The notes below the pieces were generated by a model, which ran no database searches, was not told the DNA's origin, and saw only the letters and a program-made list of their open reading frames with translations. This document shows positions 3,841 through 29,308 of a DNA stretch of 55,124 nt, one piece after another. Positions within the stretch are counted from its first letter, which is position 1, and the number at the start of each line of letters is the position of its first letter. The stretch comes from a virus, in the IMG/VR virus record IMGVR_UViG_3300021138_000034, positions 1 to 55,124 of that record, one strand, 5' to 3'. A program made the translations under genes and the position numbers.

Positions 3841-3917
3841 TGGTTGCGGGAGTGGGATTTGAACCCACGACCTAGAGCTTATGAGGCTCCCGAGCTTCCG
3901 AGCTGCTCTATCCCGCA
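3841..3917 (-). tRNA. tRNA-Met (CAU) with encoded CCA
   Basis: 74-nt cloverleaf plus encoded CCA (3841-3843): acceptor TGCGGGA/TCCCGCA, anticodon arm GGAGC-CTCATAA-GCTCT. Positions 1-72 are paired and the three G-C pairs of initiator tRNA are missing, so an elongator is likely. A lysidine-modified Ile tRNA cannot be excluded. The next tRNA begins right after the CCA. Confidence 0.88.
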
Positions 3918-5006: not shown

Positions 5007-5807
5007 CTAAGCGTGATTAAAAATTTCCTGCCAAGTCTTAGGTCCGATGATGCCATTAGGGTCTAACTCGTGGTTAGCTGTTTGAACTGCAATAACAGCC
5101 TTCTTTGTAGCCGGGCCATATTGACCGTCTGCGTCTAAACCAAGAACCATCTGGATCAGCTTAACGTTGTCGTTTGTATCACCAGGATTGATTGTTCCAG
5201 GGAAACCTGGAGCTGGCTTTGGAGCAGGCGGGGTAGCAGGATGGGAGTTAGCTGCAGCGCCAGCATAGGCTGGACGACCAAAGCCAACTACTGTTGACCA
5301 AAGATGTCGTTTGTTATCTGGTCGAAATCCTCGAACGTTAGAGGCAACTTCTCCGCCGTTGTTAGGACTTCCTGCAGGGCGCTTGTCAGGGCTGGTGTTG
5401 CCCTCAACTGTGGTGATTGTTCCATCGCCATTGTCCTTAAGTACTACGCCTACGTGCTGGATTGGACTTGAAGGAAGCGCATTAGGGATAAATGAGAAGT
5501 AGATCAAGTCACCTGGTTGTGGATGCGCGGTAGCTGCATCCGCCCAAGTTCCAGCCTTCTTAAATGCAGCAGCGCCATTAGGTGTGTAAACAGTATCTGG
5601 AATTGTTACTCCAGCCTGCTTAGCGCACCACATCATGAAGCTTCCGCACCATGCTTGGAAGTTATGACCTGTAAAAGCGCCGTAATCTGTCTCGTTATCT
5701 TTTGGTCCTTCGATAACACCGACCTGTGACAAAGCTACTTCTAGGAAACGTGCTGCTGTTCCTTGAGCGTTAGCTCCTACTGGTGGTACTGGTTTTGCTG
5801 ATGCCAT
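5007..5807 (-). CDS. Endolysin: CHAP amidase/peptidase with peptidoglycan-binding domain
   Basis: 266 residues. The CHAP domain covers about 20-160, with the catalytic Cys in QAWCGSF (C54), His in IQHVGVVL (H118) and the acidic partner in TVEGNTS (E135). After an Ala/Pro linker (about 175-195), a PG-binding-1 domain covers about 200-262 (GDTNDNVKLIQMVLGLDADG, YGPATKKAV, GIIGPKTW). It cleaves host peptidoglycan for release. There is no signal peptide, so export would depend on the holin-like genes just upstream. AGGAG precedes ATG 5807. Confidence 0.93.
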   Translation of the reverse strand: MASAKPVPPVGANAQGTAARFLEVALSQVGVIEGPKDNETDYGAFTGHNFQAWCGSFMMWCAKQAGVTIPDTVYTPNGAAAFKKAGTWADAATAHPQPGDLIYFSFIPNALPSSPIQHVGVVLKDNGDGTITTVEGNTSPDKRPAGSPNNGGEVASNVRGFRPDNKRHLWSTVVGFGRPAYAGAAANSHPATPPAPKPAPGFPGTINPGDTNDNVKLIQMVLGLDADGQYGPATKKAVIAVQTANHELDPNGIIGPKTWQEIFNHA

Positions 5808-5815
5808 TGTTACTC

Positions 5816-6274
5816 CTAGTTATAGTTTGGGTCTACTGCTGCTGGAGCAGCTGGAGTAGCATCTACAGCAGGAGCTGCAGCTGCTGGAGTAGAGTCTACA
5901 GCAGGAGCTGCAGTTGTTTGTGTTGGGATAGCTGAAGCTACAGTTTTGCTTCCATCTGCGTTGATAACAATTGCTTCGCCATTTTGACGAGCTTCTACAG
6001 CAAGGTCAGCTGCTGTTGTAGCCTTAGTGTCAATTGAAGCAAACGCTGCATTAATTTCGTCCATGCTGAGCTTGCCGTCATCCATAAAGCCGCGAGCAAG
6101 TTTTTCAACCACAGCTGCTACAGCTGTGATGCCGGCAACGCTCATTGCCTTAACTGTTGAGATGCCTGCTACAGCACCGGCACCAATAACGCCAAGAGCG
6201 CTTGCGGTAAAAGCTGCGACAATGCGCATAAGCACATTGAAGAAAAGCTTGTACGTGTTAATTAGTTTTATCAT
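5816..6274 (-). CDS. Membrane protein, holin candidate, with Ala/Pro repeat tail (152 aa)
   Basis: The N-terminal half holds hydrophobic segments (about 5-30 and 32-58, rich in Ala/Gly/Val). A soluble region follows, then a C-terminal tail of APAVD.TPAA-type repeats (about 115-150). It stands directly before the endolysin, as expected of a holin or antiholin. It overlaps the previous small membrane gene by 17 bases. Confidence 0.6.
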   Translation of the reverse strand: MIKLINTYKLFFNVLMRIVAAFTASALGVIGAGAVAGISTVKAMSVAGITAVAAVVEKLARGFMDDGKLSMDEINAAFASIDTKATTAADLAVEARQNGEAIVINADGSKTVASAIPTQTTAAPAVDSTPAAAAPAVDATPAAPAAVDPNYN

Positions 6275-6446
6275 CCTGTGTTTCCTTTGGGTTTCTTAGT
6301 CGATATGTGGTTAACCACATAAAGATTGCGATTAATGTTGCGTCACCTACGACAGTTTTTGCGGAACCTGTTAGAACTAGCCATGCTGAGAAAAGACCAA
6401 CAAAGGTCCAAGTCTGGTTAGCTAAGTCTCTTAGAAGACCTTTCAT
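6258..6446 (-). CDS. Small membrane protein, holin candidate (62 aa)
   Basis: Two hydrophobic segments (about 12-30 and 33-50) separated by a short turn, with a charged C-terminus. This is the size and shape of small phage holins. A strong AGGAGGAGGA ribosome site lies inside the end of the upstream gene. Together with 5816-6274 and the endolysin it forms a lysis cassette. Confidence 0.6.
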   Translation of the reverse strand: MKGLLRDLANQTWTFVGLFSAWLVLTGSAKTVVGDATLIAIFMWLTTYRLRNPKETQDDKTN

Positions 6447-9400
6447 CCGTTCCTCCTCCTGAAACGTGCAATCTGGCCAGCCACAAATGTGATGACCAAA
6501 ATCTTTTTAGCTTTTTTACGAGTAATGGGAGACATATCGTTTCCGATGTTGGCCATCGCAACAAAAGCTTGATTCACAGCTTGTACGCCAGGCACAGACG
6601 CTAAAGCTCCAGTAACCGGTGTGAGTGCTACTGGTACAGCGATGTCGGGTGCGTTAAAGGTTGTTCCGCCGGGTTGTCCAATAAAAGTGGCTGAAGTGGT
6701 GATAGCGTCGGGCGGAATAGGTAGACCAGAACCAGGTGGCGGAGCTGGAGGCGTTAATTTGCCGTCTTCTCCTACAACCTGAGGTGCAGATTTAGTACCA
6801 AAGAATTGTATGCCACCATTCTCTACTCCCGCTTGGTCAACCTGTACGTGAGGTACAAGGACGCTAGCTGGCGCTTCTTTTGGTGTAGTATCCGATAAAG
6901 AATTTGGGCTATCTTGAATTAGCCCAGGAGCAGGAGCTTCTGATGGTATTGATGGTGATGGGGCTGGGTCTGGCTGTGGCTGGACTGGCGGCGTGGAAGG
7001 AGGCACGGGTGCAGGACTTGGAGTCACTTGCGTGGTTGATCCTTGGTCTGACGGTGCCGATGGCGTTGTTGGTGTTTGTTGTTGGTCTGATTGGGAAGGG
7101 GAAGTAGATGGATCAGGAGCGCCTTGAGCATTTGAAGAAGTTGAGGGATCAGGCGAAGGAACAGCTGGATCTGGCGTTGGCGCAGGGGCCGGCTGCGGAT
7201 CCGAAGGTTGAGGTTGAGGCTGAGGCTGCGCTTCGTCAGTTCCTGAAGGAGATGCTGCAGGAGCCTGAGGTTCGCTCGGACTTGCAGGAGAAGGTAAAGC
7301 AGATGTCTGAGAATCAGAAGGCGACGGAGTAGATGCGGAAGAAGATTGCGATTGCTGTGCTTGGGCTTGCTGCGCTGCTAGGGCTGCTGCAGCTTGTGCA
7401 GCGGCTGCAGCATCGGCAGCGGCTTTAGCAGCAGCATCTTGCTGAGCCTTTAAGTCAATAGCAGCTACAACAGCATCTGTACTGGTCTGTATTGTTTGAA
7501 CCGCCGTTGCAGCAGTGGCTGTAGCGGTGTCCACCAAAGCCGAAGCTACGCTGATTTGCGAAACTAGCGTTGTTTGAATTGAATTAACTGTAGATGTGGC
7601 TTGAGAAGCCGCATCTCTAGCAGATTGTAGGTCTGCTTTAGCAGAATCCAAATCAGATTGAGCTTGTGCTTGAGTTGCTTGTGCAGACTGAACAGCGGCA
7701 TTGGCTGCATCTGAAGCCGCCTGAAGTTGAGTCAAAGTAGCTTGGTCTGTTGTCAAGTTTGTTTGAGCATCCGCTAATGCTTGAGCCGCGTCCGCAGCAG
7801 CTTGTTGAGCGGTTGTTAGGTTTTGCGTATCTGTTGTTAGGTTTTGCTGCAGGACTGTTAGGTTTTGAGTCTGGGTTGTTAGGTTTTGGGTATCAGAACT
7901 TAATACTTGTGTGAGGTTTTGAACTTGAGCTGCGTTTGACCCAACAGTGTTAAATGCAGAAGTTGGGACAGGAACCCAACCATTACCCACGTTCCATTGA
8001 AGCTGTGAAACAGCCCCTCCGCCGTTTTCGTAATACCACGCCAAGATATCCTGAGTTTGCTGTTGAGTGAAGTTCACAGACCCAGCGCCAGAGTAAGTTG
8101 GCCCCTGGTCTCTCCATTGGTTGATGACAAGAATATTATTAATGTAAAGCTTAAAGCCATCATCAGAATATGAACGGAAGTATACGACCTGTGGAGTTGG
8201 CGCAGTGACTGTTCCTGTGTATTGAACAACAACGTGATCAGCGTTTGCCCCCATTACTGACCCGCTACCCCAGTTAGCGTTAATTTGAGAAACGGTTCCC
8301 TGAGTAGCAGGGGTCATAGATGAAGTAGGAAGTGCCGGAGACGACCCGTTACCGGTGTTATAGGCCTTATAAGTAAGCCCTTGTGTAGCGGAATTGTTTG
8401 CTTGAGCTGTTGCCAAAGCGGTTTGGTCAGCGGCTACTGTTGATTGAGCATCGGAGACTACTGGAGTCTGAGCGTCTACAGCCGCTTGGTCAGAAGTAAC
8501 AGTTGCTTGACTAGAGGACACTACAGCGTTTGCTGAATCTGAAGACGATTGAGCAGAAGCTACATTAGTAACGTCCTGCGTTACTACTACGGTTTGGTTA
8601 GTAACGGCCTGAGCTGCTGCATCTGCTGAGGTTTGAGCCGTGACTGTAGCTGCTTGAGCTACGTCTAGAGCTACGGTTTTATCTGCTGCCGCAACCGTGG
8701 CTGAGTCCACAGAGGATTGAGCAACAGACTGAGCGTCTAAAGCAGGCTGTAGGGAATTGGCGGTAGAGGAAGCCGCTGCTATGGCAGCGGTAGCGTCTTG
8801 ATTTGCTTGGTCAGAAGCTTGGACCGCTTGATTAACATAAGTAACAGCATCCTGAACACCGGGAAGGGCTACCACAGCAGCCACAGCCTCTGGATCGTTT
8901 GACCCTATCTTTCCAAAAAGAGTAGTATTTGCGCTATCTATGGCAGACGTTACGGTAGAACCGTCAACAGTAACTTGGCTTGAAAGGGCGTTTAATTGTG
9001 AAACAGCTGATTGGCTATCTATTGGTGGTTGCTGTGGGTCTTGTGTCTGCACGACAGGCGCGACAGGCGGTTGGTTTGATTCTAAAGAGGAAGTCGAAGT
9101 AGATGGAGAAGTGGTCGATTCTGTGGTTCCTGATACCTGTGATGGCGTTGGTTCTACCACTGACGGTACTGGTGTGGGTGTGAATGATGGTGAAAGTTGT
9201 GACCCACTTGTCCCGTCAGTTGTTGAAGATACTGAAGGGCTACTAACAGATGCTTCAAGCGGTTGAGCTACTTGCAGTGTTGACGGGTCTGTTGTCTGTT
9301 GCTGGGTATTTAGCGTATCTTGAGATACGGGCGCAGAAGATTCATCTGCGTGAGCAGGAGACATCGAGAGCAAAGCGCCAGCAGCGCCCGCCCCAAGAAT

Positions 9401-9457
9401 AAGTGTGATTCGTTTTGAGTATCCAGATAGTGCTGCGAATGTGCGCAGATTACTAAT
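6443..9457 (-). CDS. Secreted giant stalk protein with PA14 domain (1004 aa, probable ATT start)
   Basis: The frame is open from 9457. No ATG, GTG or TTG precedes TTG 9373, yet codons 1-39 encode a textbook Sec signal peptide (SNLRTFAALSGYSKRITLIL, then an Ala/Gly core ending SPAHA before DESS). GGGGGAG lies six bases before ATT 9457, so I choose ATT. The order after the signal is: Ser/Thr/Pro-rich linker, Ala/Gln-rich coiled coil (about 150-350), PA14 domain (about 358-503, with YFRSYSDDGFKLYINN), NLT-heptad coiled coil, Pro/Ser linker (about 710-890), and a short hydrophobic stretch then RFRRRNG at the end. PA14 domains often bind sugars. It sits beside the lysis cassette. Confidence 0.75.
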   Translation of the reverse strand: MSNLRTFAALSGYSKRITLILGAGAAGALLSMSPAHADESSAPVSQDTLNTQQQTTDPSTLQVAQPLEASVSSPSVSSTTDGTSGSQLSPSFTPTPVPSVVEPTPSQVSGTTESTTSPSTSTSSLESNQPPVAPVVQTQDPQQPPIDSQSAVSQLNALSSQVTVDGSTVTSAIDSANTTLFGKIGSNDPEAVAAVVALPGVQDAVTYVNQAVQASDQANQDATAAIAAASSTANSLQPALDAQSVAQSSVDSATVAAADKTVALDVAQAATVTAQTSADAAAQAVTNQTVVVTQDVTNVASAQSSSDSANAVVSSSQATVTSDQAAVDAQTPVVSDAQSTVAADQTALATAQANNSATQGLTYKAYNTGNGSSPALPTSSMTPATQGTVSQINANWGSGSVMGANADHVVVQYTGTVTAPTPQVVYFRSYSDDGFKLYINNILVINQWRDQGPTYSGAGSVNFTQQQTQDILAWYYENGGGAVSQLQWNVGNGWVPVPTSAFNTVGSNAAQVQNLTQVLSSDTQNLTTQTQNLTVLQQNLTTDTQNLTTAQQAAADAAQALADAQTNLTTDQATLTQLQAASDAANAAVQSAQATQAQAQSDLDSAKADLQSARDAASQATSTVNSIQTTLVSQISVASALVDTATATAATAVQTIQTSTDAVVAAIDLKAQQDAAAKAAADAAAAAQAAAALAAQQAQAQQSQSSSASTPSPSDSQTSALPSPASPSEPQAPAASPSGTDEAQPQPQPQPSDPQPAPAPTPDPAVPSPDPSTSSNAQGAPDPSTSPSQSDQQQTPTTPSAPSDQGSTTQVTPSPAPVPPSTPPVQPQPDPAPSPSIPSEAPAPGLIQDSPNSLSDTTPKEAPASVLVPHVQVDQAGVENGGIQFFGTKSAPQVVGEDGKLTPPAPPPGSGLPIPPDAITTSATFIGQPGGTTFNAPDIAVPVALTPVTGALASVPGVQAVNQAFVAMANIGNDMSPITRKKAKKILVITFVAGQIARFRRRNG
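7815..7888 (-). repeat. 21-bp tandem repeat encoding NLT heptads
   Basis: GTTAGGTTTTG recurs on the plus strand at 7815, 7836, 7857 and 7878, exactly 21 bp apart. On the coding strand this gives heptads NLTTDTQ, NLTTQTQ and the like. The repeat builds the coiled-coil stalk after the PA14 domain and could vary in copy number. Confidence 0.85.
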
Positions 9458-9508
9458 CTTTGTCTCCCCCTAAGAGCAATTACTCTTTATTTTACGGGAG
9501 TACTTCAA

Positions 9509-25561: not shown

Positions 25562-25693
25562 CTATCCTAGAGTCGTGTTATCACTTACTGTAGGTAAGTC
25601 ATCGTGACCTAGATCCCTGCAGGTGTAGCAGGTATAGAGCGTAGATTCTGATTCCAACATTTCAAAATCATTAAAGCAAGTCAAACATTTCAT
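25562..25693 (-). CDS. Zinc-ribbon micro-protein after RNR (43 aa)
   Basis: MKCLTCFNDFEMLESESTLY then TCYTCRDLG: two CxxC pairs. ATGA overlap with the reductase stop. Confidence 0.65.
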   Translation of the reverse strand: MKCLTCFNDFEMLESESTLYTCYTCRDLGHDDLPTVSDNTTLG

Positions 25694-27732
25694 TTAACGT
25701 CCCTAATCATTTTTACTTCGCAAGCATCTGTGGTGCAGTAAGCCTCACCGATGGCGTCCATCGCTAGACCTTCGTACACTCCACTTAGATCAATTGGAAA
25801 TAGCTTCATTGTGTAATCTTCATACTGTTTTGCTGTGATCTCTGAGTATGGCATTTGCGGGTAGGTCCCGTTATCCATCGGCAAGAAGGACACGGTCTTG
25901 AGCTGCCCGTCGAACATATGCAAAACTTTACCAATATCTGTTTTCTCTGTTTCTGGATTAAATGATACGGTCACAGATACCGAGTTGTCAGACCAATAGC
26001 GTTGAGCTGTGGCAGCTAGCGCTACCTTTTCGTAGATGGATACTTCCTTCTCCGAACGACGGCCACCTCCCTTGATTGGGAAGAACACGACTGAGGTTGT
26101 CTCAGGCGATTCAGCTGCCGGCTCGACTGTATATCCTGCCATCTTGAATAAAGGCAATACTGGGTCGCTGTTACCAAATCGAACAGCGCGTAGGAAGTAC
26201 TGTCCACCTGGCATCCAGTGAACTCCTGGCGATTCGCCAGCGAGGATACTTACAGTTCCGGATGGTTTGATGGTTGTTGTCTTGATTGATTCGCGGATGC
26301 CAAGCCATTCAGAATACGATTTATCATACGACTGAATGATGGAGTATCCCTTATCCATCCACTCACGTAAGGTTGGTAGTCCATGAATGTCAGCAAAGTT
26401 GGCAACGCCCGACATAGAGGTTCCGATGCGTCGATTACGCTGCATGATGGCGTTAGTCTCTTCCCAGTGAGTGGGGAGGAGTGTGACAGTCTTCGCATAT
26501 AGGTAGGCGAACTTAAGAGTACGGAGGTAATCCTCAAGATTGTCGTGGCGATTCAAATAGGTTTCTACTAACGTACAGCACTCGTACGATTCGAGTGATT
26601 GCTCTGCACATGGGTTATATCCTACAGCTCGCCAGTCTTTGTTATTGATTGGATCAGCAAGGCGACCATACTGCCGAGTGACGTCCATCCAGATAACGCC
26701 CGGCTCACCGTTGTCAGCGATTCGTTCGATGATTGGAGTTAGGTTAGAGCCTACGTTTACCTCTACTGAGTTGTTAGACATCCAACCCCAGCCAGAGTCT
26801 TTACCGGTTGGGTCATACTTGTTACGCTTTGGATTCTTCTTGAAGTCCTTGAGGTTGAGGAATTCCTCATCGTCTAACCGGCCCATGAGTAGCTCAGCTG
26901 AGCGACGCACGTTTCCGCTCACAACACAAACTCCGATGAGGTTGCCGATGTCAGCGATATCTGTACGGGTTAGCTGTCCGCTTTCTCGTCCTTTGAAGAT
27001 TCGGGTGATGTGCTTGTGTAATTTGATAAGTGGTTCAGGGCCTGCAGCAGTTCCTCCGAAAGTCCGAATAGGTTCTCCTGCTTTTCGAATTTCAGAGTAG
27101 TCGAACGTTGGTAGCGCTTGGTCAGGCTTGAGGTAAGCGTTAAGAAGCTGTGCAGTGGATTCGACCCAGCCCTCTCGGGTGTCGGGAATGATTGTGGCAT
27201 CGGTACTCTCTTTCGGCTTATAAATTGTAAAGCCTTTATCAGCACCTTTATCATCGAACCCAACGCCTACTCCCAGCATGGAAGCTTCCATGAGGAATGC
27301 AAAAGGCTTTGCTGGGTCGTTCTTGTTCATACTTCCGGTGGATACGAAAGCGCAATTCTGCAAGGCAGCGGAGTTGCGCTGCTCATTAACTAGTGGGGTA
27401 CCCATAACCCATAGCCCACGTCCCGGTGGAGTCCACTTTAGATTGAACAGGCGATCGTAAGCTTCCTTGGCAGAAGCTTGAGCTTTGGCGTCTGACCATG
27501 GGAGGCGGTTAGACTTGGCGTGGTCCTTCTGTAGGGAGTACATGCCGTTGATTACTCGCTCGCAGACTTCGGCCCAAGTTTCCTTGGTGCCGTCTGGCTT
27601 CAGCCGACTGTACGTTCGGAGGAAAATAATCTCTCCCATACTGTTGCCAGCTGCATCACGGTTTCCGAAAGGCGCCTTCTTGGTCTTGTAGCCAGATACG
27701 AACTCATCGGCCAAACGGAATGTGATTGCCAT
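25690..27732 (-). CDS. nrdJ: Adenosylcobalamin-dependent ribonucleoside-triphosphate reductase (class II, monomeric)
   Basis: 680 residues, similar in plan to the Lactobacillus leichmannii enzyme. C127 (QNCAF) and C386 have the spacing of the disulfide-forming pair; C375 in NPCAEQ is the thiyl-radical site, eleven residues before C386 as in the known enzyme. The C-terminal C-TTDA-C (666/671) is the reductant-relay pair. It makes dNTPs from NTPs using host-supplied B12. GGAGAG precedes ATG 27732. No thioredoxin or glutaredoxin gene was seen nearby. Confidence 0.95.
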   Translation of the reverse strand: MAITFRLADEFVSGYKTKKAPFGNRDAAGNSMGEIIFLRTYSRLKPDGTKETWAEVCERVINGMYSLQKDHAKSNRLPWSDAKAQASAKEAYDRLFNLKWTPPGRGLWVMGTPLVNEQRNSAALQNCAFVSTGSMNKNDPAKPFAFLMEASMLGVGVGFDDKGADKGFTIYKPKESTDATIIPDTREGWVESTAQLLNAYLKPDQALPTFDYSEIRKAGEPIRTFGGTAAGPEPLIKLHKHITRIFKGRESGQLTRTDIADIGNLIGVCVVSGNVRRSAELLMGRLDDEEFLNLKDFKKNPKRNKYDPTGKDSGWGWMSNNSVEVNVGSNLTPIIERIADNGEPGVIWMDVTRQYGRLADPINNKDWRAVGYNPCAEQSLESYECCTLVETYLNRHDNLEDYLRTLKFAYLYAKTVTLLPTHWEETNAIMQRNRRIGTSMSGVANFADIHGLPTLREWMDKGYSIIQSYDKSYSEWLGIRESIKTTTIKPSGTVSILAGESPGVHWMPGGQYFLRAVRFGNSDPVLPLFKMAGYTVEPAAESPETTSVVFFPIKGGGRRSEKEVSIYEKVALAATAQRYWSDNSVSVTVSFNPETEKTDIGKVLHMFDGQLKTVSFLPMDNGTYPQMPYSEITAKQYEDYTMKLFPIDLSGVYEGLAMDAIGEAYCTTDACEVKMIRDVK

Positions 27733-27859: not shown

Positions 27860-29308
27860 CTAGTCTTCGGTCAAATCTTTCAAAATGCGAGTAGTCTCAA
27901 CCTCATCTATAGGTTTTGGAAGCTCATTTAATACCTGAGCACGGTCTCCAAACATCCTCGTCATCCATCCAGCTCCGGCATTTTTAGCCTCAACAGTCAT
28001 CTTAATGCTGCTGCTTCCGGACAACATATCGTTGATTTTTTGCGTCAGATCAATAAGGCGATCGAGCTCTTTTGATACGTTTGGATCAGGGTATCCACCA
28101 TTGACTTGTTCGGTAAAAGCAGCGAAAGCAACTCGGTTTGACTGCAATTCTAATATCGCAGTCATGTATGCCTGAAGCTGTTCACGGGTCTTTAATTCAA
28201 TTGGAAAACTGTAAGCACAGGAGTTGTTTGCCTTAAAAGCTGGGCAATTGGCGGCGATAAAACAGGTGTTGCATTGACGGACGCTGGCGCCAGAGCTCTC
28301 GACGACAGGCACGTCTTTGATGGTGCCATCTGGGTCAAAAACCTTCTGAGTGGACATGTTAAAAACCGGCAAAACCGTCATTTCTGACGGGTCTCGGTCC
28401 ATTAATTTTCCTACCTCTAATGGCTTGTTATCAGGTACGACGAGGTCTTTTTCCGCGTAATCATCACTCGCTGGGTCTTCGAAGTTATCATATAAGTTCG
28501 CCATTTTGCTCAATTTCTCCTCAAGTCGTTGGAATGACCAGATGGCCAACTTGCAATTTTCTTTTTCGTCGTCTCCTACAATCTTATCGAAATCTAAGCC
28601 GATAGATTCGTAGATGGCCTTGTAGCGAGGACGAGCTTGAGCCTTCATAGACTTTGGATAACGAGCCAGCTTTACCCCATCCCATACGATGGTCTCACCG
28701 TGGGTCATAGGGGATATCCAAGCAAGGCTGTGTGCGGTCTCTACAGGCACCTGTCGCAGGTTATCTGGACGAGCGCAGGCGATGGCATGAAACCTTGTGC
28801 CTGACTGCGTTGTCAGGCTTCTGGTTACCCCAGCCAGCCAGGTGAATTCTTCGATACTTTCACCGGTCAACCCGATGTCTAGATAAGTATCGGCTAGGCG
28901 CCTAAGCTCGCCTTGACCTAAGTTTGGATTCCAGATCGGAAGGAACTTACCGGGTGGGCATTGAGCCCAACAGGTCTTCCTCTGTTCTTCGATGAAATCC
29001 GGGCTAAGTAGTGGGTGAGTCATTTCCGAAAACATAGCGATTCGGTCTATGTTGTCAGCTATAAACTCTTCATACTCAGCAGCTAGGCTTTCAAACTCCA
29101 GCCTATCTAGCGCTATGTTACGGGGAACGCCGGCATGGACATACAACAAAGTGTCTTCTGGAAAGTAATTTTTAAGTAAATACTTTTTGGTTTTGGGCAG
29201 CCCACGCTGCTTCAATCGCCAGTAGCTGATGCTCATATGCTTGGCATTCATAGATTCCAAAATTAGGCGATTTGATGGAACTTCTGAGCCCATAAATACT
29301 ATGTTCAA
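27860..29308 (-). CDS. Unrecognised 482-residue protein, possible TIM-barrel transglycosylase-like
   Basis: TTG 29308 overlaps the previous stop (TTGA) with GGAAG upstream. The first 240 residues have a barrel-like series ending in AHSLAWISPMTHGETIVWDG, faintly reminiscent of tRNA-guanine/DpdA-type transglycosylases; this is low-confidence recollection. A cysteine cluster RQCNTCFIAANCPAFKANNS lies near residue 355 and could bind a metal or Fe-S cluster. No preQ0 synthesis genes are in the window. The frame continues past TAG into a zinc-finger-like 20-codon stretch. Confidence 0.5.
   Translation of the reverse strand: MNIVFMGSEVPSNRLILESMNAKHMSISYWRLKQRGLPKTKKYLLKNYFPEDTLLYVHAGVPRNIALDRLEFESLAAEYEEFIADNIDRIAMFSEMTHPLLSPDFIEEQRKTCWAQCPPGKFLPIWNPNLGQGELRRLADTYLDIGLTGESIEEFTWLAGVTRSLTTQSGTRFHAIACARPDNLRQVPVETAHSLAWISPMTHGETIVWDGVKLARYPKSMKAQARPRYKAIYESIGLDFDKIVGDDEKENCKLAIWSFQRLEEKLSKMANLYDNFEDPASDDYAEKDLVVPDNKPLEVGKLMDRDPSEMTVLPVFNMSTQKVFDPDGTIKDVPVVESSGASVRQCNTCFIAANCPAFKANNSCAYSFPIELKTREQLQAYMTAILELQSNRVAFAAFTEQVNGGYPDPNVSKELDRLIDLTQKINDMLSGSSSIKMTVEAKNAGAGWMTRMFGDRAQVLNELPKPIDEVETTRILKDLTED

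Follow-up and report, generated by a model that had tools for sequence, protein, structure and literature searches.

The Stalk Gene and Its Start Codon

The window analyzed here covers positions 1 to 55,124 of virus record IMGVR_UViG_3300021138_000034, a stretch of 55,124 nucleotides. On its minus strand, a frame of 1008 codons (9469..6443) is open from stop to stop and begins GGG GAG ACA AAG ATT AGT AAT CTG..., with no ATG, GTG, or TTG ahead of the core of a signal peptide and the earliest such codon, TTG 9373, at codon index 32. When read from the ATT at 9455..9457 (minus strand), the sole start-like codon behind a Shine-Dalgarno (SD) sequence before the signal core, the frame encodes an exported stalk, or adhesin, of 1004 aa plus the stop codon (6443..9457, minus strand). 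The SD sequence, GGGGGAG (9464..9470, minus strand), pairs with the 16S 3′ end with a duplex energy of about -9.3 kcal/mol and is separated from the ATT by a six-base gap. At both the DNA and protein level, this ATT aligns with the TTG start of four relatives (L007, L089, L004, and L080), which read TTG AAA CCA CTG CGT ACA TTC GCA GCA where the window reads ATT AGT AAT CTG CGC ACA TTC GCA GCA, and because of this alignment the putative ATT start is more than chance. Across relatives, the homologous position is occupied by TTG, ATA, ATT, GTG, or ATG. A first-pass annotation of this DNA had proposed an in-frame Sec signal ending in AHA before any ATG, GTG, or TTG, and an ATT start six bases past GGGGGAG; the reading of the frame and the TTG starts of the homologues bear out both.

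Directly upstream of the SD sequence lies a small leader hairpin (AAGAGT-AATT-GCTCTT; 9472..9487, minus strand) with a fold z of -2.28. Hairpins before the SD sequence are commoner in the stalk family (mean z -1.28) than in 150 control genes (-0.17, p=7e-7), as is an in-frame stop immediately before the start (17/46 family members vs 21/218 controls), but since the controls are unmatched for having their own promoter, we treat these excesses as a lead. The hairpins of relatives differ in sequence while keeping the same position before the SD sequence, possibly with compensatory changes (L069/L076/L092). No consensus promoter was found ahead of the window stalk gene; TATAAT-like boxes can be picked out by eye in several relatives. 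In L084/L202, near 3290, the 5′ end of the stalk gene is apparently frameshifted or rearranged.

Architecture of the Exported Protein

The domain order is a Sec-type signal peptide, an Ala/Thr/Gln-rich stalk, a PA14 domain, a Pro-rich spacer, and a conserved C-terminal module. The predicted signal peptide (9347..9457, minus strand) spans 37 aa with an AHA/D cleavage site. By eye and in a Kyte-Doolittle plot, the n-region of ISNLRTFAALSGYSKRITLILGAGAAGALLSMSPAHA, followed by D, is basic and its core is hydrophobic, with AxA at the cleavage site. On sequence grounds, essentially all full-length homologues carry a signal peptide. The PA14 domain (8093..8365, minus strand; residues 365-455) matches Pfam PF07691 with E=1e-7 and 32.3 bits against a cut-off of 24, and its AlphaFold model, in which the fold covers about 7932-8386, has a mean pLDDT of 83 and a core above 90. 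A Foldseek search of the PDB with this model returned PA14 structures at E about 1e-7, the best matches being the PA14-like domain of clostridial anti-sigma proteins, the sugar-bound PA14 of the Marinomonas RTX adhesin, and the yeast Flo/Epa adhesins. A DDG motif, a candidate for the conserved metal/sugar-site Asp-Asp of sugar-binding PA14 adhesins, is invariant in 16 aligned members. Signal peptide, Pfam match, and model together agree with the earlier reading of the gene as an exported PA14 stalk of about 1000 residues.

Beyond the head, a Pro/Ser/Gln-rich spacer of the wall-spanning type (6953..7387, minus strand; 27% Pro by composition) leads into the C-terminal module (MANIGNDMSPxTRKKAKK...RRR; 6446..6925, minus strand), which was defined from alignments A1 and A3 and carries two predicted C-terminal helices. 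AlphaFold predicts the module with low confidence (pLDDT 68), no solved structure matching it was found, and hydropathy gives a clear transmembrane helix, at or above 1.6, in only 7/58 members. LPXTG anchoring was rejected because the motif is not conserved in the module alignments, and neither is the TPVTG of the window. In L019 and L025, an insert of ~28 residues (LMTYVCETITKDGKEIHLDVNG...C) interrupts the otherwise conserved module.

The Membrane Protein F4 and the Lysis Neighborhood

The stalk gene is followed by F4 (6258..6446, minus strand), which encodes a 62-aa membrane protein and whose ATG overlaps the TGA of the stalk as ATGA. F4 proteins are ~60 residues long, with two hydrophobic segments and an invariant core, WLVLTGSAK. 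The stalk stop overlaps the F4 start in 63/66 distinct loci, and the pairing is obligate, with F4 never present without a stalk: a stalk end lies directly upstream in 71 readable loci and in one incomplete locus (72). F4 starts with ATG in 52/56 cases, its SD energy averages -9.3 kcal/mol, and its SD sequence, AGAAGGAGG, encodes the terminal Arg residues of the stalk, such that the C-terminus of the stalk in the window, AGGAGGAGG, doubles as the F4 SD sequence. The basic C-terminus singled out by the first-pass annotation is thus present, but because the F4 SD sequence sits in the terminal Arg codons, this feature results, at least in part, from dual coding with the overlapping gene.

Further downstream come F0, encoding a holin-like membrane protein (5816..6274, minus strand), and often F1, an endolysin with CHAP and peptidoglycan-binding domains by Pfam and PHROG (5007..5807, minus strand). 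F0 was assigned from PHROG matches and synteny: it matches PHROG 26427 (labelled nuclease) with E=4e-23 and the holin family PHROG 443 with E=1.2e-4 for a family member and, weakly, 0.21 for the window copy. There are no tail genes among the immediate neighbors of the stalk.

Distribution and Host

A first scan found the family at 31 viral-contig loci, most sharing only the last ~160 residues with 61-84% identity, while a search with the A1 alignment of the C-terminal module found at least 124 viral-contig loci, 80 of which were kept for analysis. The same module search found no member among 84,980 prokaryotic species genomes and none among 50,697 named phages; F4 was likewise not found in named phages, and the window stalk protein matched no PHROG. 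The first-pass annotation regarded such a protein as unusual for a phage; instead, it belongs to a recurrent cassette. Between members, the middle of the stalk is variable, with PA14 in 34/58, fn3 in 4, a SUEL lectin in 1, and GLEYA in 1.

The host is probably an actinobacterium, because a helicase comparison places Streptomyces phages (112-116 kb) nearest among named phages, the gene upstream of the window stalk carries a DUF7455, and a holin-like match leads to the Actinomycetia phage DSL-LC01. From the contig set and from DSL-LC01, which comes from lake water, we infer a freshwater (lake) origin for the family. Elsewhere on the minus strand, the window carries a queuine tRNA-ribosyltransferase-like gene (27860-29308) and a class II ribonucleotide reductase (25690-27732). 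It also carries an initiator-looking tRNA-Met(CAT) (3841-3917, minus strand) that is conserved in two phages (L117, 146-222) and has A11-U24, a weak or mismatched 1-72 pair, a TTCAAAT loop, and ACCA, with A-U/G-C/C-G replacing the three G-C anticodon-stem pairs.

Start Codons across the Family

Across 58 distinct 5′ regions, the stalk starts are TTG in 34, ATA in 12, and ATT, GTG, and ATG in 4 each. These comprise 46 regions for which the best SD-supported start was taken (TTG 27, ATA 8, ATT 4, GTG 4, ATG 3) and twelve further loci (ATA 4, TTG 7, ATG 1); in L022, L027, L055, L093, and L102 the start was set by eye. ATA and ATT starts thus account for 16/58, about a quarter of the family, and nearly all of these members have no NTG ahead of the signal core, the exception being L024, with one TTG that lacks an SD sequence. 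In 44 other gene families from the same loci, by comparison, aligned starts are ATG in 324 cases, GTG in 27, and TTG in 10, and nearly every cell outside these three codons is a misalignment next to an ATG. A uniform rule, requiring AT[AT] with a strong SD sequence and no usable NTG nearby, flags 13/44 family ORFs (L052, L069, L076, and L083 among them) against at most 6/750 others, only one of which is convincing. That case is a terminase-like gene of ~600 aa, named by eye, in L036 (1209 onwards, plus strand), with an apparent ATA start (aaaggtgccaaaATA) and no NTG for 35 codons; its relatives start with TTG or ATG.

Other exported proteins of these phages start mostly with ATG (9/9 in family F12, 5/7 in F23, and 5/6 in F30). 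These three families (e.g., L034 16176, L013 414, L075 17402) include a secreted protein rich in Ala/Thr/Val and another that looks subtilase-like by eye. A tree built from the module and F4 requires the start to have moved between ATA/ATT and NTG 10 times or more, and well-supported branches force 5 of these moves. Because control families start mostly with ATG and switches recur on the tree, the weak start is specific to the stalk gene and has repeatedly arisen or been exchanged. No phage example of an ATT, AUU, or AUA start was found in the literature searched, with most subscription journals outside its reach; the PA14 fold and the near-cognate starts of infC and sigR are already known, while the combination seen here, in which one family of phage genes repeatedly starts at AUA or AUU and is obligately paired with a membrane protein, appears to be undescribed.

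A Proposed Role at the Surface of the Infected Cell

The reading we favor, at a probability of roughly 55%, is that the stalk is a low-copy surface adhesin of the infected cell, weakly initiated, held at the envelope through its C-terminal module and F4, and bearing a variable, probably sugar-binding head. The succession of signal peptide, head, Pro-rich spacer, and C-terminal module suits a protein on display at the surface of an infected cell. Initiation at a near-cognate codon (AUU in the window) behind a good SD sequence would keep translation of the stalk deliberately low. The protein would be exported by the Sec pathway, and the conserved module together with F4 would retain it at the cell envelope. 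The Pro-rich spacer and the Ala/Gln/Thr-rich stalk would then carry the head outward through the wall. This head, PA14 in the window and fn3 or lectin-like in relatives, is variable and probably sugar-binding, and its display would most likely alter what infected cells, or the debris from them, can bind. Coating of the surface, a superinfection block, or aggregation, as proposed in the first-pass annotation, would be conceivable effects of such an architecture.

The phage seems to keep the amount of stalk deliberately low, because relatives recurrently use weak starts while F4 has a strong ATG; the weak start would hold stalk levels below those of F4, which starts at an ATG after a strong SD sequence in the last codons of the stalk. 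Because TTG is a fairly good start codon, the "low" expression may be modest in members that use it. The ATT is read as a throttle because of its likeness to sigR-rsrA and because of start-codon yields measured in vitro, where a survey reports that weak pairs at the third base give far less product than Watson-Crick or G/U pairs do (PMC10158994). As for retention, most members are without a convincing transmembrane helix in the module, which makes F4 the obvious candidate anchor; with so few such helices and a module model at pLDDT 68, the case for anchoring by F4 is a genetic one.

If correct, stalk and F4 would make up a new envelope unit of two genes, with which phages that infect abundant lake bacteria probably remodel the infected cell surface. 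The family is also a natural, replicated test of why genes keep near-cognate initiation. Gene finders usually take only ATG, GTG, and TTG, so that in ATA/ATT members they would truncate the signal peptide or overlook it.

Alternative Explanations

The gene order itself suggests a second explanation, in which the stalk, F4, and holin-like F0 act together as a complex in the envelope, setting the time of lysis or detecting what is outside the cell (e.g., a superinfecting phage), with the weak start setting the dose. Holin and endolysin adjoin as in a lysis cassette, with the stalk directly before F4, F0, and usually the CHAP endolysin; the pairing with F4 is absolute; and dose-sensitive starts occur in lysis genes. 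However, the cassette persists in loci where no F1-family endolysin follows (L034, L054, L069, and L092), and a variable, adhesin-like ectodomain of 500-1200 residues is not known from antiholins or spanins. A lysis role is thus plausible in outline but, on balance, unlikely.

It is less probable still that the stalk is a virion component, such as a tail fiber or adsorption protein whose gene precedes those for lysis, a placement seen in many phages that infect Gram-positive bacteria. Receptor-binding proteins commonly have sugar-binding domains and lie near lysis genes, and the stalk shares this position and has a probable sugar-binding domain. A tail fiber, however, would have no secretory signal and a conserved N-terminal tail-attachment region, whereas essentially all full-length stalks carry a signal peptide, with the variable part between this signal and a conserved C-terminus, the reverse of the usual arrangement, and the immediate neighbors are not tail genes. 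These same features support the suggestion in the first-pass annotation that the protein is not part of the virion, in the sense that it is not a typical virion protein.

We give a similarly low probability to the ATA/ATT starts acting as a switch, where translation rises only once initiation fidelity relaxes late in infection through low IF3 or an altered initiator tRNA pool. Such control has precedent, as the AUU, AUC, and GTC starts of infC and sigR are governed by IF3 (PMC5472188), and the window encodes the initiator-like tRNA described above (A11-U24, ending ACCA, and lacking the customary three G-C pairs of the anticodon stem). In contrast, no IF3 gene was found in 20 phage records, and apart from the window, the initiator-like tRNA was found in a single phage, which has a TTG start, while the ATA/ATT-start records, which may be incomplete, carry no tRNA or only Asn/Gln/Arg tRNAs. 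Since ATA/ATT phages lack this tRNA, it was discarded as a general explanation for the ATT start. A true switch may exist, but its two simplest effectors, IF3 and an initiator-like tRNA, are unsupported. A combined version, in which AUA/AUU/UUG starts with strong SD sequences and leader hairpins form an initiation-fidelity switch, open only in the phase of infection with relaxed discrimination at initiation, for a two-part stalk and F4 envelope adhesin assembled just before lysis, seems to us just as doubtful.

Finally, that the gene begins elsewhere, by frameshift from upstream or at TTG 9373 (the start that the first-pass annotation had named as refuting its reading), leaving the ATT unused, draws on the rarity of ATT starts but is very improbable: TTG 9373 lies 28 codons inside the homologous region and would delete the signal peptide, relatives have TTG, GTG, or ATG at the position aligned with the ATT, and the homologues rule it out as a shortened start.

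Comparison with Known Systems

Several known systems resemble the stalk in part. A close parallel to the stalk-F4 arrangement is sigR-rsrA of Streptomyces, a translationally coupled pair in which the first gene has a non-canonical start and the second a normal one; sigR starts at GTC and is repressed by IF3, and its weak start leaves the product of the second gene, RsrA, in excess (PMC5472188). The two differ in that sigR and rsrA encode sigma and anti-sigma regulators that are not exported, and IF3 control has been shown for sigR but would be conjectural for the stalk. The gene for IF3 itself, infC (ATT in E. coli, ATC in Streptomyces), likewise has an AUU start in a natural gene, and in the window ATT, as in the ATA/ATT members generally, a non-NTG codon stands behind an SD sequence as it does in infC and sigR. 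However, infC serves autoregulation of an initiation factor, while the stalk is exported and phage-encoded, and its several weak starts can replace one another.

Among exported proteins, a 945-aa protein of DSL-LC01 (OQ999401) resembles the family in its signal peptide, an fn3-like domain that shares 45% identity with L022, a Pro/Thr/acidic spacer, and a C-terminal hydrophobic hairpin, but it starts with ATG and has no conserved module; a fusion of F4 into its C-terminus was considered as a link and set aside, the similarity not being significant (probability 12%). The PA14 of the Marinomonas primoryensis RTX adhesin and of yeast Flo/Epa, matched by Foldseek, forms the sugar-binding head of a long stalk at the surface, although these proteins use other anchoring and secretion and share 8-18% identity with the stalk, for which sugar binding is putative. 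The overall plan is that of LPXTG adhesins of the MSCRAMM type, which have an N-terminal signal peptide, variable binding domains, a Pro-rich wall-spanning spacer, and a C-terminal anchor region ending in Arg. The stalk shares the signal peptide and the Pro-rich spacer, but in place of a conserved LPXTG it has helices and an overlapping membrane protein, and its Arg codons double as the SD sequence of that partner.
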